Of a DNA stretch of 64,000 nt, positions 1 through 64,000 are shown piece by piece (within the stretch, counting starts at the first letter, position 1; every line of letters starts with the position of its first letter). Made by a program: the position numbers and the translations under genes. Origin of the DNA: Mugil cephalus (lineage: Eukaryota; Chordata; Actinopteri; Mugiliformes; Mugilidae); contig NC_061789.1 of NCBI RefSeq assembly GCF_022458985.1, positions 12,058,175 through 12,122,174 of the forward strand. The letters run 5' to 3'. The notes beneath the pieces are model-generated. The model was given only the letters and a program-made list of their open reading frames with translations, searched no databases and was not told where the DNA came from.

Positions 1-249
1 AAAATTGGTATCAGCCTTAAAAAATCCACATTGGTCGATCTCGATCTTTAGCTAGGTCTGTTGCTAATGACTGTAATGTGTTGGTGCTGAATGATAAAGC
101 AAATAAATCTTTGTTGGGTAATCTTTTTTTTTTTTTAACACGTTTCTTCAAGTCATATTTTTAGGGGTGCTTGACAGGCCTATAAGTACACGTATTTTCC
201 AGCTTCCAGCTGCACGTACTCTGCTAGTGGGGGAGTACAATGTATGGGC

Positions 250-345
250 TGCGCAGGTCCCATATATTGGCCGATACCGATACCAGTAAAAAACACAAAT
301 ATCGGCCCAATACGTTGGCCAACTGCCGATATATTGGCGAATCTC
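250..345. repeat. Dispersed repeat with CCGATA/TATCGG motifs
   Basis: The stretch carries repeated, partly palindromic motifs (GGCCGATACCGATA, ATATCGGCCCAATA, GCCGATATATTGGCGAA). I recognise this texture as a common interspersed repeat of fish genomes, but I cannot name the family and see no target-site duplication. Confidence 0.4.
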
Positions 346-574
346 TAATACAAAAAAACCCCACTTTTCATTGTGTAATCCTTACTGTTTATTACTATTT
401 ATTACCATTTAAAATGAAACAGTACATATTTCACTTGATTACGCAGACATCTAGAGAGAACACTCCAAAATGCTGTGTCCATAAACTTGAATTAAAAGGC
501 AACATCTGTATACATTTAATAGTCTCACACATGCATTTTTGCACAATTATACATATGTCATTGTGTACAGTTTA

Positions 575-937
575 TCAAACTTTCTGAAGCAGACTCACAT
601 CTATTTCCACATGTAATTTTACATGTAAGAGTTTGTGTTGGCAGAAGGTATATATAGTACAATATTAAAGCAGATTAGGATTAATAACCCTCCTGGGCCA
701 TTAGCTGGTACTTGACATTACACACATCCATAACACCATGTTACCAAGAAGACAAGAAGATGTTAACATAATAATAAACTCAGGATCTAATTAACAACAC
801 AGAAGTCATTTGTATCATAAGTTAAAAACAATAAATCACACTACTATCCATATGTTTCATTATTACGTGCATGATCAAACTTTCTGAAGCACACTCAGAT
901 CTATTTCCACATATGTTTTTACATACAAGAGTTTGTG
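575..937. repeat. Local direct duplication (575-640 and 872-937)
   Basis: Two stretches of about 65 bases both read ATCAAACTTTCTGAAGCA followed by ACTCA-GATCTATTTCCACAT and AAGAGTTTGTGT, with a few differences. They lie about 300 bases apart in direct orientation. No coding content is seen. Confidence 0.6.
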
Positions 938-1242
938 TATCATGTACAAGTACAATGTAAAAGCAGATTTTTGTGATGTGAATGCAGTATTTGTTTATGA
1001 CTGAGATCTTCTGTCCAGGAAGCAGAAGGCAGTCTACTCATTGGAAAGTTGCTCTAAGGAGGATCTCCTATGATTTACATCATTCTATAGTAGATTTACT
1101 TGTTTCACATTGTCATCACCTAGCTTTCATTAAGCTTGAGTAAAATCTCCCACAGTTAGATCAGTGAACTTACTGGTACCTGCGTAGACTGACTTTTTCC
1201 AAACATGTTTTTCTGAATATGTTTTTGGGCCTGAATCGTTTT

Positions 1243-2422
1243 CTATTCTTCCTTCTTTCTGAGTTGTTTATCTTGCTCATCTCGATACTTCTTTGCTTTA
1301 GTTTTCCTTTTCATACGTTTTAACGCCGGCCTTCCAGTGAAATATAGAGTGTAATGATCTGATATTTCATCGTTGCGGATGATGAAGTTAGAGACTTCCA
1401 TATTTCTGGTGATGATCAGATCCAGAGTGTGACCACGCCGGTGCGTTGGGCAAGATACATGCTGATGGAGGCCAGCATCCCACAACACAGCTTTAAACTT
1501 CTGGGTGGACCTCTGGTTTTCATCATCAACCCAGATATTGAAATCCCCAGTCACAATAATGCTGCTGTACCACTGAGTTTCATTCATGAGTCTTTGAAAC
1601 TCCTTAAGGAAGGTTTTGAAATGTCTGTTTCTCGTTGGATAATACACATTGATGAACAGGACAGGTTGGTCCCACTCACTGTGTTGTACAACTGCAGCCA
1701 CATATTCAAATGTTGTTATGAAGTCAAAATAGATCTGAACACCCTGGAACTCGTGTGAGTACAGGATGGCAACCCCTCCCCCTCTACTGCCCCTAACCTG
1801 ATAGTGAGAATCAAAGTTTGATGGTGAGATTTCAGAGAGTATTTCATTTGCGTTGTCCCTTGTCAACCATGTCTCTGTTGGGAGAAAGATGTCCAGGTTG
1901 TTTTCTCTTATGAGATTACATATACGCTGTCTTTTGTTGTTGAGTGACCGAACATTGAGCAAAGCTATTTCCACTGTTGTGGCCTCATCAGAGCTTTCAT
2001 CGTACTCTGATTCTTCCTCACTATCACTATCAGTATCATCGTCACTCTCTTCATCTGAACGCCCGTACTCCTTATCTCCCCGATCACCTCCTCCATTTTG
2101 ATCACCTCCATCTCCACCTCCAGACTGTGCACTACGATGTCTGTTTCTATTACTGTTGCTCTTTTCTGTGTGATGGCCTGTTTGTCTATGTACACGTTTT
2201 TGACATTCTTGAGAATCAACGGCCACCTTCTTCTTAGAAGGTCTGTTAGCCGACTGGTGAGATCTCACCATCAAACGAAGGCATTTGCTAATCACCCTAA
2301 TCTCCCTCTGAGTTAGGTTTGTACTCATATTGTGGTTTGTATGATTGTGTTGAGTGTGACTCTTTCTGGAGAGCTCTTCCTCGTATTCCCGTTGTCTTAC
2401 AGCCATATCTTGTAATGCCTTC
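1243..2422 (-). CDS. Exon C: intact AP-endonuclease-like (LINE EN) domain without reverse transcriptase
   Basis: This 1180-nt exon has an uninterrupted frame. About 150 basic and then acidic low-complexity residues (runs of D, E and S) precede an endonuclease/exonuclease/phosphatase domain of the non-LTR retrotransposon kind (L2/CR1/Rex1-like by its wording). All hallmark motifs are visible: LLNVRSLNNK (metal-site Asn), TETWL (catalytic Glu), RGGGVAI, VTGDFN (Asp/Asn pair), HTLDLIIT and ISDHYTLYF (Asp-His). After the His the frame runs about 40 basic residues and stops. The reverse transcriptase that follows EN in a normal LINE ORF2 was not found downstream to position 1. An open frame with every catalytic residue is odd for a dead LINE fragment and suggests either a young insertion or a retained host exon. 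Confidence 0.75.
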
Positions 2423-3829
2423 CTGTAAATAAAACAAGCAAAAGAACAGTTGGAATGTAATCACTTATTATAGGTCTGTCTGATGGTTGGTTAGCATGGT
2501 GCTAACAATAGTTTCTCGAATTGATTATTTGTGCAGGGTTGAGCAGTTTATATGGGTTATTGCTTCAACATGATAGGTTTGGCTCTGACTGATTAGTTTG
2601 TAGGGAGGTGCAGTGGTGTGGTGGTTAGCACTGATGCCTCACAGCAAGAACGTTCTTGTTTGAATCTATCATCCGACTGGACCCTCTCTGTGTGGATCCT
2701 CTAAAGGACAAGTGCTTACATAAAATTAATGAACTATTAGTTGGTGATTTAAAGCTAAAATGTGTAGAAGGTGATTTTGTCCTTTCTGTTTAACAGAAAA
2801 CATACTCTGCGTTGTTGAGCTGTTCCCTCAACACCTGGGTCATCTTTAGGATTTTGTCGGCTTCATCTCTCATTGATTGACTGGCTTCAGTCACATGGTT
2901 CTTCTCAATCATTTTTTTCCAGTTGTCAACTGCGTCAGGTAGAGCAAACATCATTCCAACAGCACCTCCTGCGACCTGATGATTGATAGAAGGATACATG
3001 TACATGCATTAATCATAAAATCAGTAAATTAATAGTCACTAACTAACCAACTGTTAACATAAGTATTTAAATATTACCTGGGCACATCCTTTAAGGAGTA
3101 TTTCTTTAGGTATTACTTTGATGAACTGTTTAACTCCTTCGTCAAAATAAAGTTTACCTCCATTTCCACAGAAGTCCATTGCAAAAATCAGTGACATACC
3201 AGACATCATGTTAAATCCTTTAGCCATCATGCAATGGACGAACTTGTCCAAAGGTTTGGTTATCTGTCCGTTGTGGAAAAATTGCAGCTTATCATTGCAG
3301 TAGTTGAAGTTGATCGTTAGACCAGATCTTCTCGCCATGGCTTTCAAAATTTCTGTCACTATGTGTTGATCCACTTCTTCAAGGTCTGGATTCTTCTTTT
3401 TAATCTCATCCTTCAGTTTCTTGAACAGTTGCTGGATTTTTTCTGCAATTTGCTTGCTCTTCTTGTCAATTTTTTCCTTCTCTTTCATGGTGTCACTGGA
3501 TAAGAAATATTCAATGGCTGCAGTTGACAAAGAGATGGTGGCTCCTACCCCTGAGTATAGAGATCCAGCAAAACCTAATAGTGGAGCAGCTGCCCCACCA
3601 GTGAACAAAGTGGCCACACCAGCTCCAATCAGGCATGCAGCACCAACCACCGCCACTGTGTTTCCAACACATTTGCCTGCAGTGCATTTCTCACTGAGAG
3701 ACTCCAGCTCCCTGGCCAGTTTCTTCAGCTGGTCTGCACAGTCCTCCCTCTTCTTGATCCAGGACCAAATCTGGTCCAGCAGCTCGTCTGCGGTGGCCAT
3801 GGCAGAAGACTCTGTGTCCACCTGATCTT
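1243..3829 (-). CDS. APOL-like protein predicted to continue into a LINE-type endonuclease exon
   Basis: Three exons read on the minus strand. Exon A (acceptor at 3829, ATG at 3800 in a GCCATGG context, to 3078) and exon B (2975-2806) encode an apolipoprotein-L-like protein: amphipathic helices (DELLDQIWSWIKKREDCA), then a long hydrophobic Gly/Ala-rich hairpin around residues 43-95 typical of APOL membrane-insertion regions, then helical segments and a final coiled coil ending LREQLNNAE. Exon A joins B in phase 0 (KGCAQ|VAGGAVG). B ends GCAGA|GTATGT, and exon C starts at 2422 after a strong polypyrimidine acceptor (TTTTATTTACAG). The phases fit (GA+G=Glu), giving NNAE-KALQDMAVRQREYEEEL, a continuing coiled coil, and then the endonuclease described separately. 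The total is 2073 nt, 690 aa from the ATG. If the exon B donor is skipped, the APOL part stops after NNAEYVFC. An upstream exon is possible because the frame is open to the acceptor. Gene structure is inferred; no transcript was seen. Confidence 0.68.
2602..2712 (+). repeat. tRNA-derived SINE-like fragment in the intron
   Basis: The text GGTGCAGTGGTGTGGTGGTTAGCACTGATGCCTCACAGCAAGAA, followed by a degraded TTTGAATC box-B-like motif and CTCTGTGTGGATCC, matches the very common fish SINE-like repeat (GTGGTTAGCAC ... GGTTCGAATC). It lies between predicted exons B and C of the APOL-like gene. A related copy in the opposite orientation is at 36600-36830. Confidence 0.6.
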
Positions 3830-4140
3830 CTGACTAGAGAGCAGAAAAATGTTATCAATTGGAGACTGACAATAGAAAGTCAGAGGACAAATTAAATTAT
3901 TGTAGCATCAAAGGAGCATTGCCACCAATTTGGAGGGGAAAAAAGTATTAGTATTGAGACATCTGTTTGCAAATGTTTCTTGGCAGATGTTGGTAGATTG
4001 GTTGTTTTAGTATTTGCTTTGCAAAGTTGTTGGACAGAGTCTGAGCCTAAAATAAACCAGGAAGAGTTGGCTCCCAGTAATTGAACAGACACTTTATGGG
4101 AAAAGTGCCTACTAAAATGTAATATGAATGGCTATGCTGA
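3830..4140. other. Intergenic/upstream stretch of the APOL-like gene
   Basis: I see no domain-bearing reading frame here. The short minus-strand frame at 3892-4092 resembles nothing I recognise. The stretch should contain the upstream intron or promoter of the APOL-like gene, because an acceptor sits at 3830. Confidence 0.4.
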
Positions 4141-5725
4141 TACTACTATGTTTGGTACAGGTGCCTAAGTCAAATTGATAGATCGAGCTTGGAGACAGCG
4201 GTACCTAGCTCATCAAGAGATCCATCCGTTGAATGAGCTAATGGGTGATTGTGATCTCAATATGATGGCAGCCAATGGAGAAGCAATCCTCTGTGATGGA
4301 TGGAGGTAATTGTCAACTTGCCTGGTACTGAGTATCCAAGCTATTCCATCAAAGTTCCATTTCTCGTGAGCCGAGTCAACCTGATGCGCCCACTTCTAGG
4401 CTTTAATGTCTTCCAAGAGATCATCTTAAGTCAAGTTACATATGAGTGACTGTCTGGTTAAAGTGCAATACACAAAGAGACCTTATGTTGAAATACCAGT
4501 GACCAAGTCCACCAAGCAGGACATAGTATTGGCCCGCCGCACAGCCCTGGGCAGCATTCAACTGATCAACAAAATTGTTGAAATGGACAGTGAACAGTGT
4601 TCAAGTGAATTAAGTTGGCACACCCTCTGTTGCTGCAGCAGCATTGTGGCATCCACCAGTTGACATTGCCCATCTACGTGTCGAGGAACAGCCAGTAGTG
4701 CTCTATGAAGAGTCCAACACATTCTGGCTTGACCATCTGATAAACATCTTGTCCAGCCCACCTGTGGGCGTATTTGAAGTGCCACACTGATGCATCAGCG
4801 AAAGGCCTCGGTGCAGTTCAATACCAGCGTCAGGATGGGAAGTTGAGGGTTGTTGCCTATGGGTCAAGAACATTGTCTGCTGCAGAGAAAAACAAGTGTT
4901 TGCACTTGGTAGCTTGTGTCTGTCTGAGAAATTTCGGGACCATCTTTTCTACACACCCCATTTCACTGTCTCTACAGAAAACAACCCCCTGACCTACGTA
5001 ATGAGCACCGCAAAGGTGAATGCTGTGAGTTACAGATGGCTTGCAGAATTATCGGACTTCCGATTTGAGATCCGGTACAGGCCAAGGAAGGTCAACATTG
5101 ATGCCAGCACTCTCTCTCAACTGCCACTTAGCATGACTGAATATGCAGCTGCCTGCACAGAAAAGTTACCAAAGGAGATGATCCAAGTGACGTGCAATGG
5201 TAGTCAAGTAGCAAAGGAAAAGGATGTAGCCTATGTGGCAATTTTGGAACAGTCCCAAGGAATAGAGCTGCACACACCTGGTCACCAGTCAACCATCAGT
5301 CATGAAAACCTCACCAAAGCACAGAGGGAAGACACAACCATCAACAAAGTCATCAGACTGAAAGAAAAGGACATCAACCGAACAAGTCAAATCAGAAGGG
5401 ATGCCAGTGATCCAGTAAAGAAACTTATCCTCAAGTTAGAAAGGTTTCAGCTGGAGAATGCCTTGCTGTGGAGAAAGACGGTCCAAAGAAAGCAACTGGT
5501 CTTACCTGAAAAGTACAGCACCAATGCCCTGAAACACGTTCATGATGAGATGGGGTATGTGGGAACTTAGAGGGTTGTTAACCTAGCCAGAGTCCAATTT
5601 TGCTGGTCCTATGTGAAGAAAGAAATTGAAATGTATGTAACCAGTAAATGTCCATTAATCAAACAAAAGAAGCGTGTGTCGCCAGTCAGAGCGCCAATGG
5701 GTAACCCAGTACAGTAACCCAGTAA
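4140..5725 (+). mobile_element. Ty3/gypsy LTR-retrotransposon fossil (internal pol fragment)
   Basis: The plus strand carries pieces of a Ty3/gypsy polyprotein in the usual order: a protease-proximal stretch near 4270-4440, the end of the reverse transcriptase with the RNase H region around 4780-5130, and the start of the integrase region around 5300-5725. It is clearly broken, with several disruptions, and no flanking LTRs were seen, so it is an old internal remnant with no reason to expect activity. Confidence 0.8.
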
Positions 5726-6849
5726 TTAGCCAGGGTACATGCCAAGTTCATTTGTCAAATGGCCTTTCGCCATACAGCATAGTAATGCAAATAAATAATA
5801 AGTCACTGGGTGGAAATGTTTAATAAAGATTGCATTCAGAGAACTGAACAGCAACCAGTGTCTTGTCTCTGCCTCTATCCTTATCTTTTATGTTATGTGT
5901 TAGAGAACTAGAGGCAGGGTTCAATCTTATTATTAGCTACTTACACAGTCTCAGCTTCGGGACCTGTAACACAGAGTTGCCTTCACGTACTCAGAGATTA
6001 TGTTCACTTTGTTTCTACCTGCTCGGCATTAACTCTCTGACATGAGCCAAAATCTTCAAAGCCGCATTAATCAATGTTTTTATTTCAGTCTTCAACAAGA
6101 AAGTGTCTCTTCTGCAAATAGAATCAAAATGTGTTTACTTATGCTCTGTCAATAGTAACAGTTGCATTATTCTTGACAGATGTGAGAAAAGCAAATGACC
6201 CTGAAGCAGCCACAAACGTCTGACTAGACTGTAAACATGTCTAAATATTTCACAGCTTATTAAGCATATGATTTTATTACAACAGAGTAATGGTGTGGGA
6301 GAAACAAGAGAAACAGCGAAACAGAAAGTTAAAGCAGTTATAAAAATCCAAAAATAAAGTCTTTTAAATATACAGCAGCATGCTCAGAGAGAGAAACCAT
6401 TAACATATCTTTATTAAACCCATGCTACATAAACAGCTGATTCTAAACCGTGAGTATCAATCTGTCTGGGCTGTAACACAGAGTCTTGTGCATGCAGGAA
6501 GGATCATGTAATATTGCCACTGTTACTAGAGCGATCTCTGTCTGAAGAGTTTTATTTTGTTGGATTTTTTTAAATTGAGATTGAAACTGAATTAAATTCT
6601 TCTTCTTATTATTATTACAGACTACAGAGACAGAAATCAACTGCAACAAAAGTAAAATTCATAAGCATATGCAGTTCATCTCATTTTAAATAATTGTAAC
6701 CTTACCTTTTCTTGATAACTCTAGACAAATAAAGTTTTATAATCTGCAGCCAAACTTGTGTCCTGCTCTGCCAGAGAGGACTGACTGACTGGCTCACTGA
6801 TGCAGCTCCATCATTAGAAGTCACATGATTTATTTTGAAACCATGTTTC
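5726..6849. other. Non-coding stretch between the gypsy fossil and the decayed gene copy
   Basis: No gene is supported. Part of it (about 6240-6345) is a diverged copy of 7618-7715, sharing TATTAAGCATAT, AGAAACAAGAGAA and GAAACAGAAAGT-AAAGCAGTT. It therefore belongs to the local duplication that also copied the neighbouring gene of unknown function. Confidence 0.5.
6240..6345. repeat. Segmental duplication copy (partner 7618-7715)
   Basis: The stretch from TTAAGCATATGATTTTATTACA to AAGTTAAAGCAGTT aligns base by base, with scattered differences, to 7618-7715. Both copies lie downstream (minus-strand sense) of a full or partial copy of the unknown gene, so the duplication unit probably covered gene plus flank. 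Confidence 0.65.
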
Positions 6850-6962
6850 CATGCACGGTCATCCGGTCGAAGAGGACTGACATTTATGTTTGGGATCATC
6901 TGTCCTCTGGCCTTCTTCACCGAGTTCCAGTGGTCTGGCAGTTTCGCAGATCGGTGTCCTTC
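6850..6962 (-). pseudogene. Decayed partial copy of the unknown 297-aa gene
   Basis: Minus-strand translation gives KLPDHWNSVKKARGQMIPN and NVSPLRPDDRAWK, closely matching KLPNHWNSMKKAGGQMIPN and TVSPFRPDDGGWK of the intact gene at 8138-9193. Only about 38 codons of the second coding exon remain; sequence on either side no longer matches the protein, and the amino-terminal half and the carboxy-terminal part are missing. The flank at 7078-7445 duplicates the upstream region of the intact gene, so this is a truncated tandem duplicate, not a separate gene. Confidence 0.8.
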
Positions 6963-8137
6963 ATGAATATGAATTCCTTACATGTTGTTGCTTCACGGCA
7001 GCACTTCTCAAATGCACATACCGCATATTTCAACTGACTAGTCTCTGAGAGGATTGTGTATAAAAAAGGCAAAAGGTAATTCCTTCACCTTTCCACCAGT
7101 TTATCCTAAAGATGCACTTAAAACATGTTCATTTAATCACTGCAATTACACTGCGATCTCATGAATAACTGAAACAAAAATGTCAACTCATGGAACAAAC
7201 AACATGCAGAGCTAATAAGTAAACACAAAGAGAAACTCATTTATGACTGTCACTGCCACCAGAGGTCACTGAAATATGAGTCCCTGCATCATGAAAGATG
7301 ATTCACTGAGGTTGAATGTGTAGACCGAGTTATTATCTAAAAATAGTAACAGAAATCCCCGCAGACACTTTGGACAGCAACACAACAGATTTCCTGTAAA
7401 CGAGCTGATTTGTAACAACACAACCGTGCTCTAATAACAACTTGCCAGTTTCACACAAAGACACATCTCATCTCTTCATAACTTAATGTACTTACGTACT
7501 TATATTTTCTGTCAATAGTTACAACTACAGTAATTATATGGACAGAGTTCACATTTACACTTTTGTTCCTGATGAAGTCTGAGCAGGTTTTAAAATGTCA
7601 GCTGTGTTCATAGTGACCATGTCTGAATATTAAGCATATTATTTAATTACATCAGAGTAAGACTTGTTGGAGAAACAAGAGAAGTAGTGAAACAGAAAGT
7701 GAAAGCAGTTCCTGTGAACAATCCTATTTATTCATTCACTTTTTATGTCTACTTTCTGTCTCTTTCTCAAGAGAATCTTGTGTTGTGGCTTTGAAACAGT
7801 TTTAATTTTCTGATTTGAAACTAGATTTAGGCCTTAATCTGAGAATTACTTTGGAATTAGACAAATGAGTTTCTGCACATATTTTCAGATGCTCACTTCG
7901 TCTTATTTTCTCTTCTGCTCCCAGAATCTGAAAAAAAAGTTAGTTCCACTCATCTCCCTGTTGTCTTTTGGGACAAAATGTACCAGTCTGACTCGCCTCT
8001 GTCCTTTAACTTAAAACTGATGTCCATGTTAACGGAGTTTGTTGTTGTGCTCTCAGAAGTTTTTGTCATGTCACAAAGTCTCAGTCTTCTCAACAAACAC
8101 GTGAGCTGACAGCTGTTGTTGGTTTTGACATCACTGT
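6963..8137. other. Intergenic stretch between decayed copy and intact gene
   Basis: It holds the duplicated flank 7078-7445 (see separate entry), the copy 7618-7715, and presumably the 3' UTR of the minus-strand gene that ends at 8138. The 63-codon frame at 7950-8141 lies directly below that gene's stop codon and has no recognisable domain. Confidence 0.5.
7078..7445 (-). repeat. Duplicated upstream flank, copy next to the decayed gene
   Basis: Shares long near-identical runs with 10505-10885, for example CACCAGTTTATCCTAAAGATG, TGACTGTCACTGCCAC, TCTAAAAATAGTAACAGAAA and CACTTTGGACAG, in the same order. By eye the two copies agree at roughly nine in ten positions apart from small indels. In minus-strand sense it lies just upstream of the decayed copy, as 10505-10885 lies upstream of the intact gene. 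Confidence 0.8.
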
Positions 8138-9193
8138 TCAAACAGTCATTCGAGTGTTGTCAATGGCGCAGGCATACTGCTCCTGTAGATACTTCCTGTC
8201 AAATTTCTGTCCAGCAGAATGGTCATTGAGACAAGAACTGAAGTGAACGGTGGCTTTGAACCTGGAGGACAGGGCCAAGGTGACCACAGAGAACGGGACA
8301 CTCTCTACTGAGAGGGTGAACGGGATGACGATGCGATTTCTTCCTGGACGACCATGTTTCTCTGTGAGAGATTCATAATATTTCCAACCACCATCATCTG
8401 GTCGAAATGGACTGACAGTGATGTTTGGGATCATCTGTCCTCCAGCCTTCTTCATTGAGTTCCAGTGGTTCGGCAGTTTCACAGGTCGATGTCCTTTATC
8501 AGTAATTTTACAGCCTTTTCCTGTCCTGCAATAAAATACTCTGTGCTCAGGCCTGATGGTTCCTGTAGCAACATAGTACGTTAAACCAGAAGTGACACAG
8601 TTCCAGGGAGAATAGAGGACCACGTCTGTGATGGTGGGCAGAGGCAGCAGACAACAGGCTGGGATCATGAAGTCTCTGATTGCTCCATGACACATAAAGG
8701 TGATGTCAACATGGTCACCGTGGTCCTTCTTCTCTTCCTCATCAATGATTTTTTTCAAGAAACGAAACACATCCACAAGTTGGACGAAGAAGCCTGACTT
8801 TGAGTTTTCTCTCAGCCACTTCAGGACAGTGCCATTCTTGCAGTTTTCCTCTGCAAGCTTTAGTAATGAATTTCTTTCCAACGTCATAATCAAGTGTTTA
8901 ACTCTGGATGACAAAGCTGCACTTCTGTAAGAAAAAGTGAAAGAGGTTTAAAGTTAAACCAACAAGCTGCTCAATCTTGTGTTCTTAGAAAGTTTGATGT
9001 CAAAACATAAACCTCAGCAACACCTTCAAAAAACATTTATTCACATCTCTTCAATCTCACACTCACAGAATTTCCTCCCGTTCTTTCTTCATCTTTCTCA
9101 GATTAGTCTCCAAAACGGCCTTTTCTCTTGGAACCTGGCACGGGTTGGTATCACAGTCTGACATGTTTCCCATTGTGCAGCTTCTCTTGCAAC
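8138..9193 (-). CDS. Unknown fish protein, 297 aa, two coding exons, possible N-myristoylation
   Basis: I do not recognise this family. Coding exon 1 has an acceptor at 9193 (TTTTTCTTTTTCAG) and ATG at 9173, and ends at donor 9067|GTGAGT; it encodes MGNMSDCDTNPCQVPREKAV and a charged helix ending KKEREEIL. Coding exon 2 (8924-8138) follows acceptor TTTTTCTTACAG, and the phase 2 join is exact. It encodes a mixed alpha/beta protein with conserved-looking segments (HVDITFMCHGAIRDFMIPAC, DVVLYSPWNCVTSG, RPVKLPNHWNS, GRNRIVIPFTLS) and ends AIDNTRMTV. Gly2 followed by Asn and by Cys7 suggests myristoylation and perhaps palmitoylation, hence membrane attachment. There is no signal peptide or membrane span. 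A 5' untranslated exon probably sits at 10063-10260. A decayed tandem copy lies at 6850-6962, which suggests a locally expanding family. The function is unknown. Confidence 0.75.
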
Positions 9194-10062
9194 CTGAAAA
9201 AGAAAAACAAAAAGTCTTTCACAGTGGAGTCCACACGTACATATTCTACAGACAGCTTAGCTGTTCATTGATGACTTTTGACAATGTTGTTATGAATTGT
9301 TCTTCATTTGTTTGACATAATATGTCCTCCAAGGATTCTGTAGTTTTCTGGGTAAATGTTGGTTGCCTTCATTATGTCAGAGGTTTTATACACTTACATA
9401 AATAACATAAAGAAAACATAAAGCCGTCCTGTATATGTTAGGCATGAGAGCCAGTCGGGTTTTGAATGCTGCTCCACCCTGTTACCCTGTCTCCAGCTGG
9501 AAGACAAGGCAGCAGGGTGGATAGTGTCTTCCTTTTAATCCCAGTGCAGATCAGTGGATAGATCTGTTTCACTGTCACCTAGTCTCTTCTACTACGGAAA
9601 TGAAATAAATCCAACAATCTGTCAGTCAGTCACGGACCGTGTCTGAACTACAGTCACAACAGGAACTATGAAAAACCTGAAAAACTTCACAAGGACACAC
9701 TGATCACAGATACAGCTGTGGGTGTTTGGCGTGTCCATCTACGTCAGACAGCAGAAACCACAGCTCTTCTCACACATCTTTGACATGTGGACGCATTGAT
9801 ACTGAATCTCTCTGATCACATTCCTTAAGCAGTATGAACATGAGGTGTCCAGAGCTGCATTAAATTCCTGTTTGTTGAACATAAGAGGAGATACATACAG
9901 GTTTGCTGTGAGCTGGTTTCTTCTACAACCTCTAAAACATCTTGAAACATGTACAGAAATCTATTACAAACATTTCAGGTGAGTTGGTTTTTCATTTGGA
10001 GACTGACTAGAAGAAAGGATTCAATGAGCTCATTAAATACAAAATTAAATTAGTATTCTTAC

Positions 10063-10260
10063 CTTTGTCTGAGCACCAACCTCAGCTCAGGGTTTCATCT
10101 GAGGCTCTTATGAACTTCTTTGCAGCAGGTTCTTGTTTCTTATTGGCTGATGCAGGCTCAGGTAAGAAAGCACCTGGATTGGCACCAACTGAAAGAGAAC
10201 CTTTAACCCATGAAAATGCACCGTGGCAAGTACCAGGATTTCCAGAATGAAAATTAGGCG
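10063..10260 (-). other. Candidate 5' untranslated exon of the unknown gene
   Basis: On the minus strand the sequence ends CAGACAAAG|GTAAGAAT at 10063, a near-consensus splice donor. It precedes the clear acceptor at 9193 of the first coding exon. The distal limit is a guess. An exon here fits the duplicated flank further upstream acting as promoter; transcript data would be needed to confirm it. Confidence 0.35.
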
Positions 10261-10504
10261 GAGTCTGTCACGATGTGAATGAGCCGAATATTTTCAGTAA
10301 GTAGCAGCATTTCTGTGAAGCTGTAACTCTGCATTTGGACTTTAATAATCACCAAGAGAGACAATACAATGATAAAGAGATATCTGCTCTAATATAACAG
10401 TTGAATATATGTTTTTTACTCCATGTGTTTAAATCTGAGCAGACAGTACACCTCCATACACTTCAGATTCATTTAGCTGCTCCTGCTATAAAAAGGGCTG
10501 TAAT

Positions 10505-10885
10505 TCCTTCACCTTCCCACCAGTTTATCCTAAAGATGAAGCTCTCCACTTAAAAACATTCATTAACTCACTGCAATTACACTGTGCTCTGATGAAAAAC
10601 TAAAATGAAAATGTCGTTTTGCAAACTCATATAGAACAAACAACATACAGAGCTAATAAGTCAATATAGAGAGAAACTCGTTTATAACTGTCACTGCCAC
10701 TAGAGGTCACTGAAACACGAGTTATTGCATCATAAAAGATGAATCACTGAGGTTGAATGTGTAGACTGAGTTATAATCTAAAAATAGTAACAGAAATCCC
10801 CGTGGACACTTTGGACAGTAACACAACAGAGTTCCTGTAAACCAGCTGATTTGTAACAACAGAATCGTGCTGTAATGACAAATGA
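10505..10885 (-). repeat. Duplicated upstream flank, copy next to the intact gene
   Basis: Partner of 7078-7445, sharing the same ordered blocks with a few small indels. Because both copies lie upstream of a copy of the unknown gene in minus-strand sense, the duplicated segment likely carried promoter and gene together. Confidence 0.8.
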
Positions 10886-11700
10886 TTAAAAAAAAAACTT
10901 TAAAAGTCGCTTTTTAGTTTGAGGTAACTTTAATTCAACTTTCAAACATCAGATCAAGTATTTGATCTATTCAAAACAACCTTCACACAAACACACAGCT
11001 CATCTCTTCACGTCTCTTCATCAGTCATCACACATCACTTTATATGGCACACATCACATTATAATAAACTTATTACTGTTTTATAAATAAGGCACACTGT
11101 GATTCAGGTGGCACAAAATTTATCATATGCAAATGTGGTGAAAACTCAACCTGAGCACTTCTTCAGTGTTTCTCTTTGTGACTGAATGAGCAGCAACCAC
11201 AAAAAAATATATATGTATATATATTTAAAAAATCAATTGGAAAAAAAACCCCCATCTGTGTGGTTATGACTTTGGCAGATGTTCCTGTTAGAATTTAATC
11301 AAATACTTGCTGTTGTAGTTTCTTTGGCTCACAACATGAAGAGATTGTGCTGAAGTGTTTTTGTGGGACTCTTAAGTGACGAGGAAAAACAATAAATCTT
11401 TAGAATGAGGCAAAAAAAACATGTTCTCATTCAGGTGTCGTGATTTGACCTCAGGCCTCTGGTGAGTTCGGTTTAAAAGGCCTCGCGTATGAGCTGAATT
11501 TGACGTGATAAAAACAAGTTAAAATAAACTGAGTGAGACTCATCAAGGCTTAATAGGTTCTTCATAAAGTGCTGATATGTCACTAAAATGTTTGAGTATC
11601 AGTTCAGACTCTCTGCAATTGAACTAAATATTGCACTATTTGTTGCTGTTGCTCCTCGGTTTCCATCATCTGTGATCGTCTTCACATCCGCAGCAGCTCA

Positions 11701-22522
<10,822 letters not shown>

Positions 22523-57479: not shown

Positions 57480-58020
57480 CAGTGGAGGAGAGCTGATCTT
57501 TGCTCTGATTGGCTGGACTGGTGCAACCTAGCGGTGCTAACCAACAGTCTTTGCTGGTCAGGTGGTGAGTTATGTTTTTTTTTTATCTTCCTATCCGCCT
57601 ATCTATCCCCACCCATACAACACATTGTGGCATTTTGGCCCTGAAGGTTATTTCTTTATTTCAGGTAAACCTTACCAGAAGTTACCTGGTGGAGTTTTGT
57701 CCTTCTTGATGTGAGACAATTAGTTGTCGTGTTAAGTCAAGGTAGTGATGTAGCAGCAGCAACAAGAGCTCAGCATATGAGGAACCCCTTCATCACTGTT
57801 AAAGCTGTCTTAGTTATCAGGTTACCAAAGCTCTGATGGTAATTCTGTCTTCATTATGAAACAAAGTCAATCAAATAATAAAACGGGATCTTGAAAGAGT
57901 TTTAATGTCAGTGACTCACACCTCTCCATAAATACCTGTGTGCAAGTTCAAACTGTCTTCTTGAAGTGACTCAGGGTAAGTTGACATATTCCTTAGAGTT
58001 ACTTTGAGGTGATCAGGCTG
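57480..58020. repeat. First copy of the right-end tandem repeat unit
   Basis: It contains CTGATTGGCTGGACTGG, CTAACCAACAGTCTT-GCTGGTCAGGTGGTGAGT, GTAAACCTTACCAGAAGTTACCTGGTGGAG and CTTGAAAGAGTTTTAATGTCAGTGACTCACACCTCTCCATAAA. All recur at 61190-61700, 62010-62400 and partly at 62700-62870, so this is a diverged member of a local tandem array. Confidence 0.75.
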
Positions 58021-58189
58021 GATTTGTGTGAATCTGAACTGGATGTCTTCATTTGTAACTGTAACTCTGGTTTATATGTTATATTTTACTGGACACATGG
58101 ACTTGGATTGATACTAAACATACTGATACCGATCCACTACTGGATCCACTACTGTGGAAATCCTGGGGATTTTGGGGGGCGGTTCCAGT

Positions 58190-58316
58190 TGCATTATCTT
58201 TTCACGTCCGATGTCCAACGTCAGTCTCAGTGTTTCCAAGCATATTTAAGGAGCTGAAGTTCACATGCTAAATATTTTTTCAGTAGCTCAGATTGTCCTG
58301 CATCGCTCCAAAGAAG
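58190..58316 (+). other. Candidate 5' untranslated exon, copy 1 of a duplicated gene start
   Basis: The text ATGTCCAACGTCAGTCTCAGTGTTTCCAAGC ... GATTGTCCTGCATCGCTCCAAAGAAG|GTAAGA ends in a good splice donor and is repeated nearly unchanged at 63280-63389. It precedes a small coding exon at 58633-58741 in both copies. Its own beginning is not known. Confidence 0.45.
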
Positions 58317-58632
58317 GTAAGATGTCTCTACACAACAAAGATTTGTAGGTCGTGTGAAGTTTGTCAGCCTCAGTAACATTTTTGAGACAAACTCCCACTG
58401 CAGGTATCCAGGTTGTCAGCTCCTCCTTGCTAAAACATGTCATGACCACTGTGTTCATATCATTTAGCCCATTCTCATGTTTTGAAATTCAACATGTATG
58501 AATCAAGCTTTAGTTTAGCTCAGCTGAGTCTGTGTCATCGCAGGATGTTTGTGACAGAATTCATTCAGCCCAGAAAAACATTTACCATTTCTTAGACTTG
58601 TTGTTAACAGTAAAGTTTTTGCCATTCTCCAG

Positions 58633-59654
58633 GTCGTAGGAGGAAAAATCAGAAGAGTTCAGCTATGAACAACATCACATTAGACACCACTCAGAGTCTG
58701 AGAGACCTGCAGCTGGAACTGGAACTGGAACTGGAAATTCTGTGAGTCTCTAAAAATTCATATAGCTACAATCTATCAAAAATTTCTCACAACAATTAAA
58801 CATGTAGATCTCACATGCGTCAGCTAAGGTCAGTGTTCATGACTCCACCATGAGAAAGAGACTGGGCTAAAATGCTCTGCACGGTAGAGTTCAAAGACCA
58901 AAACCACTGCTGAGCAAATGGAACATAACGGCAGGTATAATTTTTTGGCACATCTTGATGATCCCCAAAACTTTTGGGAAAATACTCTGTGGACTGATGA
59001 GGCAAAAGTTGAACTTTTTGGAAGGTGCGTATCACATTACATCACAGTAACACCACATTTCAGAAACAGAACATCATAGCAACAGTAAAATCTGGTGGTG
59101 GTAATGTGATGGTCTGACATAAACCAGAACTTGGCGTAAAAGATTAATACTCGCTTTTTCTTTATCACAACCATCAGAGGAATAATGACAACTAGGGTCC
59201 ACTATTGATGACGTGTTACACAATTGAATTAAGGTTCAACTATTTGATAAACTCAACCTCCAAGACTAAAATGTCAGCAGTATTAAACCTTAAAATACTT
59301 TAACCAAATAATAAATACTTATCTTTTGAACCATAACAGGACACACAACATGCAGGGGTTTCATGTAGTGACATGCGTTGGCCTGTGTCTTACCGTTGGC
59401 CCACTACACCAAACTGTGGAGTCTTGCCATGACACAGGGTGCGTCTTCGACATAATTTCACAGACCTAACTATAACCCTTCCATCTTTATACTGTCTATG
59501 GTACAAACAGAACCCTTCTGCTAAATGTCTCATCAAAGGGTTTTAGATTTACATTTTAGGACAAAACTGAAGATGATTAACAGATTTTTTTCAGATTACT
59601 CAGAGACTCCTCCGTCAGTCTTGACAACAGCTTTGCTCTGTTTCCAGTTAACAG
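58633..59654 (+). CDS. 5' coding exons of an unrecognised gene, copy 1 (partial)
   Basis: Exon 2 follows acceptor TTGCCATTCTCCAG at 58633 and starts with ATG at 58665: MNNITLDTTQSLRDLQLELE, then an acidic helix ending LEIL, donor 58741|GTGAGT (phase 2). A possible exon 3 (59595-59654, acceptor TTTTTTTCAG, donor AACAG|GTAAAA) continues in frame with LLRDSSVSLDNSFALFPVN. No further exon was found before 60 kb, and a Tc1 fragment sits between exons 2 and 3, so this copy may be broken or non-functional. The exon 2 layout (short charged helix ending EIL, phase 2) resembles exon 1 of the unknown gene at 8138-9193, but homology is not shown. Confidence 0.4.
58815..59125 (+). mobile_element. Tc1/mariner transposase fragment
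   Basis: GAGAAAGAGACTGGGCTAAAATG, CATCTTGATGATCCCCAAAAC, TTTTGGGAAAATACTCTGTGGACTGATGAGGCAAAAGTTGAACTTTTTGGAAG and CTGGTGGTGGTAATGTGATGGTCTG match the central transposase of an abundant fish Tc1-like family (TLWTDEAKVELFG and GGGNVMV motifs). Only about 300 bases remain and no terminal repeats were seen. It lies within the presumed second intron of the neighbouring partial gene. Confidence 0.85.
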
Positions 59655-59659
59655 GTAAA

Positions 59660-60079
59660 ACTTAGCAGATGTTACCTCTGCTTAATGTGAGACCATTAGT
59701 TGTGTGTTACGTCAATGTAATAGCAGCAACAAGAGCTCAGCATATGAAGAACTCCTTCATTACTAATAAAGCTGTTGTCAGTTCATTGATCACCACATAA
59801 ATCAATACATGTTACATAGATTATGTCTGTTAGTCTGTCTGTGAAGATGATTCAAAAAACTCAAACAAGTTCAGCAGAAATCAAACTTTAAATCATCCAA
59901 AATCAACTAAAAACATTCTAATATTTCCAATGGTTTATGAATAAATTGAACTTTTATTCATCTTTAGATTTATAAACTGTTATTGAAAGACAGTTTGTGT
60001 TTCCATCTTAGTGACACTAGATGTCACTGTTGTCGTTGATGACTTTCAGCTGCTGCTCAAAGTGATAATACAGTCCTTT
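59660..60079. other. Gene-free stretch with part of the local repeat unit
   Basis: 59665-59790 repeats the words AGTAGCAGCAACAAGAGCTCAGCATATGA and CTTCATTACTAATAAAGCTGTTGTCAGTT found at 57750 and 61615, so it is another diverged piece of the tandem unit. The remainder shows nothing recognisable. Confidence 0.5.
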
Positions 60080-60990
60080 TGATATTTTATCCAGAATCCT
60101 TTGCAGACAATGACTTTGACAGTCTGGAACAAATGGACATCAGCTTAACTAGTTTTAGTGCTTTTTTGCCTTTGGTCTTGGCGTTTGGTCTTCAGTGCAC
60201 GTGGAGAACAGAGCATGTGGGTTTGGAGAATGGCGCAATATTTGGCAGAGTTCAATGTGACATCACAAACACTGAGATAACCAACACCAGCAGCACTCAT
60301 GAATCTGCAAACCATGATACTGCCTCCACTATTTTTGACAGTAGGTACTGTACATGGTGGAGATACTGCTTCGGCTGGCCATGGAAACTGGACTCATCTG
60401 ACCACAGAATCTTCTTCCAGTTCCTGACTGTCCAGTTCTTGTGTGCTTGGGCCTAACCAGGCTAACCTCTATCAATCATTGATCAGGGGCTTCTTGACAG
60501 CCTTGTAGGACCTTAAGCCATGATCTAAAAGTCTGGACACCAGTTTGGTTTGACAACTGCTGTTGGAGCTCCTGGGATGTCATGCGGTGTTTTTACCTGC
60601 ACATGTAGATCAGGATGTAGTAATTTTTTTCTGAAGAAACCCTTGGACGCCCACATCTTGGTTGTCTTACAAGTTGTTGGTTTGTCTGTATTTCTGCAGG
60701 GTGGATCCAGTACTGAAAGACTGCATCTGCACTTCTGGCGATCTGGTGGCAGCTGTACTCTTCCTAACTGAGAATCTGTATCTTCAAGTTTTTTTCCTGC
60801 ATTAGGTTTCTTGTTTTAGCCATTTTTGTTTCTGAAGAACTTCTAAATGTATTGGCTTTATATAGACACCAAGCATGGCAACAGAAAAAAATGGTCTTTT
60901 AATAAAAAACACGGCCTTCATTAGTGGATCACTCAAACTTTCTTTTGTATTTTTATGGAATTAATCAGTTTAACCAAGATTTGAATGCCT
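60080..60990 (-). mobile_element. Second Tc1/mariner relic, opposite orientation
   Basis: Minus-strand translation around 60230-60420 gives KKILWSDESSFQWPAEA-, PTVKNSGGSIMVCRFMSAAG- and -VGYLSVCDVTLN-like text, the central DDE region of a Tc1-like transposase (WSDES, GGSIMVWG). Stops and shifts are present within it (for example a stop after KSTKTS), and no intact frame remains. The outer limits are approximate. Confidence 0.7.
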
Positions 60991-61039
60991 GTTTCAGGAT
61001 TTGTTTAGTATTTTGTCTGTGACTGTACTAAAAGAAATC

Positions 61040-62870
61040 GCACTGTATGGTTCCAGTAATTGTCACACGTCATCCTAATCATGTAGTCTTCATGGTGCTG
61101 TCTTAGTTATAAAATGTAACACTGAGGTCCAATATCAAATATATTTAACCTGCTTTATATTCTGCTGAATGAAGATCGGACCAGAAATTCCCAAAGCTCT
61201 ATCTTCAAGATTTCTGTCTTCACTATGAAACAAGGTCAATCAGATAATAAATCAGGATCTTGAAAGAGTTTTAATGTCAGTGACACCTCTCCATAAACAC
61301 CTGTCTGTAAGTTCAAACTGTCTTCAGTGGAGGAGAGCTGATTTTCACTCTGATTGGCTGGACTGGTGCGACGTACCTGTGCTAACCAACAGTCTTAGCT
61401 GGTCAGGTGGTGAGTCATGTTTTTTTTTTAATTTTTTTATCTTCCTATCCACCTATCTATCCTCATCCACACAACACATTGCCTTATTTGGATTTTTGGC
61501 ATTTAAGATAATTTCCTTATTTCAGGTAAACCTTACCAGAAGTTACCTGGTGGAGTTTGTTCCTTCTTAATCTGAGACAATTACTTGTAATTTTAAGTCA
61601 AGGTAGTGATGTAGTAGCAGCAACAAGAGCTCAGCATATGAGGAACCCCTTCATCACTGTTAAAGCTGTTGTCAGTTTATTGATTGCCACATAGATTTGT
61701 TGATGTCTGATACTGCAAAAAGACTGAACAAATAAAAATAAAACCCTGAGCGAATTGATGCACCAGTTGTGAAAAACATGTTACATTTAGTAAAACATAG
61801 TCAAACATAGAGTATGTCTGTTCGTCTGTCTATGAAGATGATTTAAAACAAAAGCTGATTGTAGTAACTGTCACACATCATCCTAAGCATGTAGTCTTCA
61901 TGGTGCTATCTTAGTTATCAAGTGTGACACTGAGGTCCAATATCAAATATATTTAACCTGCTTTATGTTCTGCTGAATGACGATCAGACCAGAAAGTCCC
62001 AAAGCTCTGATGGTAATTCTGTCTTCACTATGAAACTAGGTCAATCAGATAATAAATCGGGATCTTGAAAGAGTTTTAATGTTGGTGACTCACACCTCTC
62101 CATAAACACCTGTCTGTAAGTTCAAACTGTCTTCAGTGGAGGAGAGCTGATCTTCACCCTGATTGGCTGGACTGGTACCACATTCCTGTGCTAACCAACA
62201 GTCTGGGCTGGTTAGGTGGTGAGTCATGTTTTTTTTTTTTTATCTTCCTATCCACCTATCTATCCTCACCCACACAACACATTGCCTTATGTAGATTTTG
62301 GCACTTAAGGTTATTTCCTTATTTCAGGTAACCCTTACCAGAAGTTACCTGGCAGAGTTTGTTCTTTCGTAATATGAGACAATTAGTTGTCATTTTATTG
62401 ATCACCAATTAGATTTGTTGATGTCTGATACTGTAGCAAGACTGTACAAATAAAAATGAAACCCTGAGCGAGTCAATGCACCAGTTGTGAAAAACATGTT
62501 ACATTTCAAATCACACATAGAGTATGTCTGTTTGTCTGTCTGTGAAGATGATTTAAAACAAAAGCTGATTGCAGTAATTGTCACACGTCATCCTAATCAT
62601 GTAGTCTTCATGGTGCTGTCTTAGTTATCAGGTGTGATACTGAGGTCCAATATCAAATATATTTAACCTGCTTTATATTCTGCTGAATGACGATGGGACC
62701 GGAAAGTCTCAAGGCTCCGAAGGTAATTTTGTCTTTATTATGAAACAAAGTCAATCAGATAATAAATCGGGATCTTGAAAGAGTTTTAATGTCAGTGACT
62801 CACACCTCTCCATAAAGTTCAAACTGTCTTCTTAAAGTGAGGTTGACATATTCCTGAGAGTTACTTTGAG
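61040..62870. repeat. Tandem array of 0.7-0.8 kb units
   Basis: Anchor text CACACGTCATCCTAATCATGTAGTCTTCATGGTGCTGTCTTAGTTAT begins units near 61065, 61870 and 62582, giving spacings of about 805 and 710 bases. Each unit continues with CACTGAGGTCCAATATCAAATATATTTAACCTGC, a GAAACAAGGTCAATCAGATAATAAATC block, and the CTGATTGGCTGGACTGG block; the last unit is cut short at 62870. By eye, units agree at roughly nine in ten positions. No coding exon is seen inside them. Confidence 0.8.
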
Positions 62871-62871
62871 G

Positions 62872-62985
62872 CAGAGATGGGATCAAGTCACTTATGTAAG
62901 AGTCTCAACTAAGTCCCAAGTCATTTTTTGGGGGTCAAGTCACAGGTTAAGTCAATTACAAGTCAAGTCACTAATACTCTGATCT
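62872..62985. repeat. Insertion of an AAGTC-rich dispersed repeat
   Basis: GCAGAGATGGGATCAAGTCAC ... AAGTCCCAAGTCATTTTTTGGGGGTCAAGTCACAGGTTAAGTCAATTACAAGTCAAGTCACTAAT is an abundant fish repeat built of AAGTC words. It interrupts the match between copy 2 and copy 1 of the duplicated block. Confidence 0.6.
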
Positions 62986-63279
62986 TTAAATTATATTTTT
63001 CTCCGTTTCCACACAGACTCACAGAGCTGCCAGTGAGACTGAAAACTAGTTAATATTAGAAGTAATTCTTTTTTATTTCAGTAAAATAATTTCAGTAAAA
63101 TAAAGTATTTCCTGCCTAAAACATTATATAAATATGACCATTTACTAGAATCCGTGTTAATCAGCTGTTTGTTAAATGTGAGGTTTGGTTGTGGAATTCC
63201 CCGGGGATTTTGTACTGCTGTAGTTTCTCTTTCATTTGCTTTATGTTTTCACCTGGCACTGAATTGACCAATCAGACTG

Positions 63280-63389
63280 CAATGTCCAACGTCAGCCTCA
63301 GTGTTTCCAAGCACATTCATGAGGAGCTAAACTTCACACGCTAAAGATTTTCTCTGCAGAGCAGATTGTCCTACATCGCTCCAAAGAAG
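63280..63389 (+). other. Candidate 5' untranslated exon, copy 2
   Basis: AATGTCCAACGTCAGCCTCAGTGTTTCCAAGC ... GATTGTCCTACATCGCTCCAAAGAAG|GTATGA repeats 58190-58316 with few changes and keeps the GT donor. It is the first exon of the second gene copy if the locus is expressed. Confidence 0.45.
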
Positions 63390-63709
63390 GTATGATGTCT
63401 CTACACAACAAAGATTTGTAGGTTGTGTGAAGTTTGTCAGCCTCAGTAACATTTTAGAGACAAACTCCCACTGCAGGTATCCAGGTTGTCAGCTCCTCCT
63501 TGCTAAAACATGTCATGACCACTGTGTTCATATCATTTAGCCCATTCTCATGTATTGAAATCAACACATATGAATCAAGCTTTAGTTTAGCTCAGCTGAG
63601 TCTGTGTCATCAGAGGATGTTTGTGACAGAATTCATTCAGCCCAGAAAAACATTTACCATTTCTTAGACTTGTTGTTAACAGTAAAGTTTTTGCTATTCT
63701 CCAAGTCGT

Positions 63710-63807
63710 AGGAGGAAAGATCAGAAGAGTTCAGCTATGAACAACATTACATCCGACTTCGCTCAGTGTCTGAGAGACCTGGAGCTGGACCTGAAACTGG
63801 AAATTCT
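63710..63807 (+). CDS. 5' coding exon of an unrecognised gene, copy 2 (runs off the window)
   Basis: ATG at 63737 opens MNNITSDFAQCLRDLELDLK and the helix ends LEIL at donor 63807|GTGAGT in phase 2, exactly as in copy 1. Compared with copy 1 it has two fewer Leu-Glu pairs (the LELELELE stretch is shorter) and several substitutions, while the flanking introns are almost identical. The rest of the gene would lie beyond 64000. I do not recognise the protein from this short helix. Confidence 0.45.
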
Positions 63808-64000
63808 GTGAGTCTCTAAAAATTCATATACCTACAAATCTATCAAAGATTTCTCCTGACAATTAAGCATGTAAACTATGCTGAGCTGCTTAAGACAGTA
63901 AAGTTGTTTTAAAATGCACTATATAATACGAGTTCATTTGGAATGTGTTTTTTAATTTGGACTATATAGTGCTGATAGATATGTGTGATCTTTACTTTTT

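Follow-up and report, generated by a model that had tools for sequence, protein, structure and literature searches.

A likely fusion of an APOL-like gene with a LINE-type endonuclease, present in two tandem copies in the genome of Mugil cephalus

Ruminant Bcnt is the one host gene known to us to have taken in a LINE endonuclease, and in it the endonuclease reportedly sits inside the protein and not at its end. This bucentaur gene, p97Bcnt (bcntp97), is reported to be a host gene carrying the endonuclease of an RTE-1 LINE and to be associated with tandem duplication (Iwashita 2003; further papers of 2006 and 2009). Endonucleases of this general kind also occur in Helentrons, rolling-circle transposons with a CR1-like endonuclease at the C-terminus of their Rep/helicase; these elements are present in fish, and their endonuclease is nearest those of CR1 LINEs (PMC4067079). 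Here we describe a gene from Mugil cephalus (genome of 634.8 Mb in 24 contigs) in a window of 64,000 nucleotides, by which we mean the whole stretch of DNA that was analyzed (C20:12058175-12122174). We consider it likely that this is a protein-coding fusion of an APOL-like gene with a LINE endonuclease, formed before a tandem duplication and kept since then in both copies.

The predicted gene comprises three coding exons, A, B, and C, preceded by a probable noncoding exon (Table 1). Joined in silico on the minus strand, the coding exons yield 2073 nt in a single frame of 690 amino acids, which bears out the first-pass annotation of this DNA in its claim that all the joins are in phase. Exon A sits in an open frame spanning 3833-3054 of the minus strand in the ORF list, and exon C contains 392 open codons, against at most 168 in 500 base-shuffled versions of the same exon. 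Splice sites were ranked by a simple position-weight score with weights that were not fitted; on this scale the exon C acceptor falls in the top 0.23% of the window's minus-strand AGs, in agreement with the earlier description of a strong acceptor leading into an open frame, and the exon A donor falls in the top 2.6% of GTs. A donor is likewise present at the end of exon B (AGA/GTATGT, with the slash at the exon end), but it ranks in the top 10.5% of GTs, a middling position, so that calling it good was generous. The donor of the noncoding exon, at 6705, scores highest of the minus-strand donors from 8000 to 3000, and both it and the noncoding stretch 6800-6706 are conserved in the tandem paralogue described below. 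A transcript spliced A-B-C is very likely.

Table 1. Predicted features of the fusion gene; nucleotide positions are those of the window.
Feature	Window position	Protein position	Strand	Remarks
Probable 5' noncoding exon	~6800-6706		minus	Ends in strong donor AAAAG/GTAAGG; exon start guessed
Exon A	3800-3078		minus	Putative APOL-like membrane-insertion region; ATG at 3800; 723 nt; acceptor 3833 or 3829, donor 3077
Exon B	2975-2806		minus	170 nt; APOL-like region ends and putative coiled coil begins here
Intron B-C	2805-2423		minus	Aligns with the paralogue intron: p-distance 0.074, 5 indels
Exon C, last exon	2422-1243		minus	1180 nt; ends in stop TAG; holds a putative coiled-coil start, then a linker rich in acidic residues and glycine, the LINE-type endonuclease, and a basic tail
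First 22 codons of exon C	2421-2356		minus	Counterpart of the relatives' short last exon
Linker	2355-1966	aa 321-450	minus	Low-complexity, fast-changing
Endonuclease domain, LINE type	1965-1330	aa 451-662	minus	Pfam, PDB profile, motifs
Basic C-terminal tail	1329-1246		minus	13 K/R in 28 aa; past the end of the aligned LINE stretches

Several other elements lie around the gene. A Gypsy-type RNase H fragment (4744-5570, plus strand; PF17919 at 3.7e-10 and PF17917 at 6.2e-10) sits inside the presumed first intron on the opposite strand, within a stretch of about 2.2 kb (~6234-4041) that has no match in the paralogue, where 73 bases are found instead. Positions 8138-8947 of the minus strand hold a 269-aa open frame with no Pfam match at 0.1. 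A portion of this frame (8378-8496) recurs with 84% identity at 6843-6961, a short way upstream of the APOL-like gene (region 6702-6977, minus strand). The final 7 kb of the window contain several repeats of 82 to 97% identity (57480-63873).

The fusion is present twice in the genome. Of 979 candidates recovered in a genome search with exon C, 105 were scored: one is the gene itself, one is a locus at 85% identity, and the remaining 103 reach 40% at most. The 85% locus (C20:12049379-12050170) has no stops and falls within a paralogue at C20:12051866-12049376, approximately 10 kb from the window gene and outside the window, whose exons (C20:12051866-12051132, 12050990-12050821, and 12050393-12049376) match those of the window gene in splice sites, phases, and frame and encode 640 aa free of stops. 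A corresponding search with exon A gave seven matches among 21 candidates, namely itself, the same neighbor (81%), a fragment (65%), and four relatives (34 to 36%). Exon B is 97% identical between the copies at the DNA level, with both splice sites kept. The neighboring duplicate with the same fusion suggests a kept gene and not debris. Between the two fusion genes lies a third, partial APOL-like copy consisting of the end of A, the intron, and the start of B (C20:12053077-12053450; L048), at which no endonuclease match was found.

Comparison of the two copies provides a view of coding constraint. When the copies were aligned as DNA, with codons disregarded, all eight exon indels (two in A, none in B, and six in C) are multiples of three, against 8 of 23 in introns and flanks (Fisher p 0.0016). 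In neutral simulations that started from exon C of the window gene, no run of 20,000 at the pair's pooled noncoding rates ended with both copies open; the probability of this outcome was 0.0001 at half the pooled rates and 0.00095 when only substitutions were allowed. Because the pooled rate is inflated by the 3' flank (p 0.253, in what may be a poor alignment, versus 0.059 to 0.097 in the other three noncoding stretches), the half-rate figure is the fairer one. When the observed changes were placed randomly in exon C, 4.4 stops were expected and none was seen (P 0.0085), and for the endonuclease and tail alone 2.1 were expected, with a P of none of 0.114. Counts of nonsynonymous changes under the same random placement in exon C gave P 0.0010, a value confounded by the clustering of changes in the linker, and we therefore used the stop counts alone. 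Estimates of dN/dS between the copies were 0.77 for the endonuclease (one-sided Fisher p 0.29), 0.72 for exon C (p 0.093), 0.24 for exon B, 0.21 for the tail, 1.26 for exon A, and 0.85 for the whole gene, and in this one pair no part of the gene has a value significantly below 1 in a one-sided test. The copies differ at 6 of 70 LINE-conserved columns versus 22 of 134 variable columns (p 0.089), a weak avoidance. The reading frame has clearly been kept, and one pair measures the strength of selection on the endonuclease poorly.

The label "APOL-like" needs some qualification. The Pfam ApoL family (PF05461) matches the fusion gene at 21.4 to 22.7 bits (22.7 for the A+B protein), under the cut-off of 25.9 bits, whereas two relatives of exon A on contig C3, 36% identical to it, clear that cut-off at 34.4 and 28.2 bits; we therefore retain the first-pass name APOL-like and do not call the gene ApoL. 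The alignment of exon A with one of these two C3 genes (E 2e-25) covers residues 15-177 of 259, and that with the other covers no more than this span; a search of PDB with exon A returned chance-like matches only. A hydrophobic stretch occupies approximately aa 40-78 (KD19 above 1.4 from aa 40 on, by a simple count), and a heptad register spans the B/C joint, where 65% of the 17 a and d positions in a 59-residue stretch are apolar (a raw fraction, with no random control). At aa ~165-205 of the fusion protein, within exon A, the copies diverge strongly and carry in-frame indels, which marks a possible site of diversifying selection.

Relatives of the gene offer a view of how the fusion may have arisen. 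Three of them (two on C3 and one at C20:12044257-12045686) have A-like and B-like exons followed by a short last exon, and no scored endonuclease match lies near these three or, with coordinates compared by eye, near any of the 24 genomic ApoL matches. The short last exons, which were read by eye from the DNA and in the third case also from an open frame, occupy the same place and phase as exon C and read Q-KMFRRLAAKKKEK, Q-KMFGGLAAV, and E-KLCQTLAKMETRRRRSCVIL, each followed by a stop, while exon C of the window gene starts E-KALQDMAVRQREYEEELSRK and then continues. Aligned by eye, these last exons begin KALQDMA (fusion), KLCQTLA, KMFRRLA, and KMFGGLA. The short last exon that the relatives have in the position and phase of exon C indicates that the endonuclease was inserted into, or appended to, a last exon that was already there and had lost its stop. 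The first-pass proposal of a joint between an APOL-like gene and a LINE endonuclease stands, given the paralogue and the coding-type indels, but its picture of a newly captured last exon gives way to one in which an old exon was extended. In the route that we propose, the short last exon of the APOL-like gene would have lost its stop codon, reading would have continued into the linker and a LINE endonuclease domain without reverse transcriptase, and tandem duplication would have followed the fusion, with both copies since kept as coding genes.

Exon C matches PF03372 (Exo_endo_phos; 2.7e-14, 53.9 bits versus a cut-off of 24.5) and PF14529 (Exo_endo_phos_2, of the retroelement type; 6e-8, 33 bits versus a cut-off of 27.4). 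All the endonuclease signatures reported in the first pass were located (LNVRSL at aa 453, TETWL at 480, GDFN at 590, and SDH at 652), together with HTLDLI at 629. When a profile of the domain and its LINE relatives from the same genome was compared with PDB, the top matches were L1 endonuclease (2v0s at 1.7e-9 and 1vyb at 2.9e-9), followed by bacterial exonuclease III at ~1e-4; phmmer searches of PDB with exon C or the endonuclease alone gave weak, chance-like matches only. Among 24 columns invariant in nine LINE rows, 21 are kept in the window gene and 22 in the paralogue, and the residues N, E, GDFN, T and D of HTLD, and SDH, which we take to be catalytic, are retained in both. Two LINE-invariant columns are altered in both copies, the R of VYRP to Y/H and the H of GDFNIH to W. 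In a genome search the linker matched only itself, among seven candidates, and comparison of the copies indicates that it evolves fast through in-frame indels.

No reverse transcriptase was found to follow exon C, as had been stated before. Pfam detected no such domain in exons A to C, in 9 of the 24 ORFs of at least 70 aa in positions 1-8000, or in one further ORF, and the RT-related matches in the scanned ORFs were to Gypsy-type RNase H only, on the opposite strand. The motif [FYL][AVMLI]DD does not occur in the six frames of 1-8000, and a search with LINE reverse transcriptases taken from this genome gave no match in window positions 1-12000 (E 0.01). Among the exact 12- to 16-base repeats listed for window positions 1-2600, none is an obvious target-site duplication around the endonuclease.

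Of the 103 other endonuclease loci, 28 were fetched. In all 28 a reverse transcriptase follows on the same strand; in the two fusion copies none does. In a Pfam scan of 10 LINE stretches, RVT_1 was recovered in five (one match each in L053, L054, L055, L057, and L059). One LINE endonuclease frame, L053:6133-7173, gave no Pfam hit at the 0.001 threshold. In a midpoint-rooted tree of 30 rows, in which the bootstrap was unsettled and the paralogue row was flagged for composition, the fusion pair forms its own branch (100/100) among LINE endonucleases, on a stem of 0.97 changes per column and adjoins one LINE family with weak support (88/75). LINE reverse transcriptase fragments 6 kb beyond the paralogue (C20:12041288-12043381; L047 1289-3382, plus strand) were considered as the missing portion and rejected, since they lie on the opposite strand and are 62 to 79% identical to the L057 family, whose endonuclease is only ~32 to 33% identical to that of the fusion. 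Searches of viral contigs and genome contigs brought up no close relatives; a Prevotella locus (L001) matched over 12 residues, which we took as chance, and a DNA pattern for the GHTLDLxIT motif had no match in the viral contigs.

The two halves of the gene could also lie next to each other by coincidence, with the APOL-like gene ending in exon B and exon C representing a neutral LINE fragment downstream. Read through without splicing, exon B does run into a stop at 2790 (...NNAEYVFC), its donor is middling, and the dN/dS of the endonuclease is not significantly below 1. Against this, the whole layout is kept in the duplicate with all exon indels in frame, simulated neutral decay keeps both frames open in no more than ~1 of 1,000 runs, and exon C begins like the short last exon of the relatives. 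Normal 5' truncation of LINEs leaves the opposite of a fragment with an endonuclease and no reverse transcriptase. The first-pass annotation had named a polyadenylation site right after NNAEYVFC as an observation that would speak against a fusion, but there is no AATAAA or ATTAAA in 2790-2423, from the exon B stop to exon C, and the nearest ones past the exon C stop codon are at 520, 403, and 393. We regard coincidence as very improbable and the fusion gene as the preferred reading of the locus.

Within that preferred reading, the source and the present state of the endonuclease can each be viewed in another way. Derivation from a Helentron, and not directly from a LINE, would account for a LINE-like endonuclease with nothing behind it, and it draws on the presence of Helentrons in fish and the closeness of their endonuclease to CR1 LINEs (PMC4067079). 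A genome search with Helitron_like_N, however, gave six partial matches, four of them with an internal stop, and no scored endonuclease (105 of 979 candidates) was seen by eye within 100 kb of these; the fetched relatives of the endonuclease are LINEs with a reverse transcriptase in every one of the 28 cases, and Rep, helicase, and RPA domains were found in neither exons A to C nor the 10 ORFs scanned. A Helentron source, perhaps one now extinct, is improbable on this evidence, if less so than coincidence. The fusion might instead be translated with an endonuclease that is no longer an enzyme and serves as a nucleic-acid-binding or inhibitory module, for example against LINEs; the weak dN/dS constraint and the two replacements shared by both copies beside the motifs (VYRP and GDFNIH) favor such a role, which we nevertheless consider unlikely because both copies retain N, E, GDFN, the T and D of HTLD, and SDH. 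With these core motifs kept, the domain is fairly probably still a metal-dependent DNA-nicking enzyme.

A function can be proposed for a fusion protein with an active endonuclease. The APOL part and the coiled coil would insert in membranes and oligomerize, the flexible acidic linker would hold the nuclease at the membrane or at a membrane-bound target, and the C-terminal domain with its basic tail would nick DNA. We put forward as a tentative possibility that the tethered nuclease may act in cell-autonomous defense, most likely against foreign DNA or retroelement intermediates, based on what is known of APOL proteins and on the many amino acid changes in exon A. A shade more doubtful is the suggestion that the protein could represent a new cell-autonomous defense enzyme combining membrane attack and DNA cutting in one molecule, with exon A as its arms-race face, and any immune role is speculation. 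If the product is indeed an active, membrane-held nuclease, it would allow the idea of domesticated retroelement enzymes in defense to be tested directly.

Comparison with known systems places the gene between several of them. The endonuclease is C-terminal here and reportedly internal in p97Bcnt. Like ApoL family members (PF05461), the protein may have a hydrophobic membrane-insertion region followed by a coiled coil, and it shares the exon layout of the C3 relatives that pass the family cut-off; unlike them, it has ~370 extra residues made up of linker, endonuclease, and tail. With the endonuclease of LINE ORF2 (CR1/L2-like) it shares Pfam domains and core motifs, and L1 endonucleases are its top PDB matches, but it lacks a reverse transcriptase, is no more than 40% identical to the other scored endonucleases, and is confined to one locus pair. 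A LINE-like endonuclease at the C-terminus of an unrelated protein is also the arrangement in the Helentron Rep/helicase/endonuclease (PMC4067079), which differs in the Rep, helicase, and RPA domains that had no match in the scanned exons and ORFs. Among the matches listed from open-license PMC titles and the starts of abstracts, no APOL-endonuclease protein is described, in keeping with the first-pass remark on the architecture; a host gene that has taken in a LINE endonuclease is already on record in p97Bcnt. In both genes, a host gene has acquired a LINE endonuclease in connection with tandem gene duplication; the host gene differs, the p97Bcnt endonuclease is reportedly of RTE type, and recruitment there is reported to have come after duplication (2006 paper), whereas here the fusion appears to have preceded it. 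The present case goes beyond a lone annotation in having an intact duplicate, relatives in the prefusion state, and a visible stop-loss route in the last exon. A second, independent capture, in a further family of host genes, would point to repeated reuse of such nucleases.
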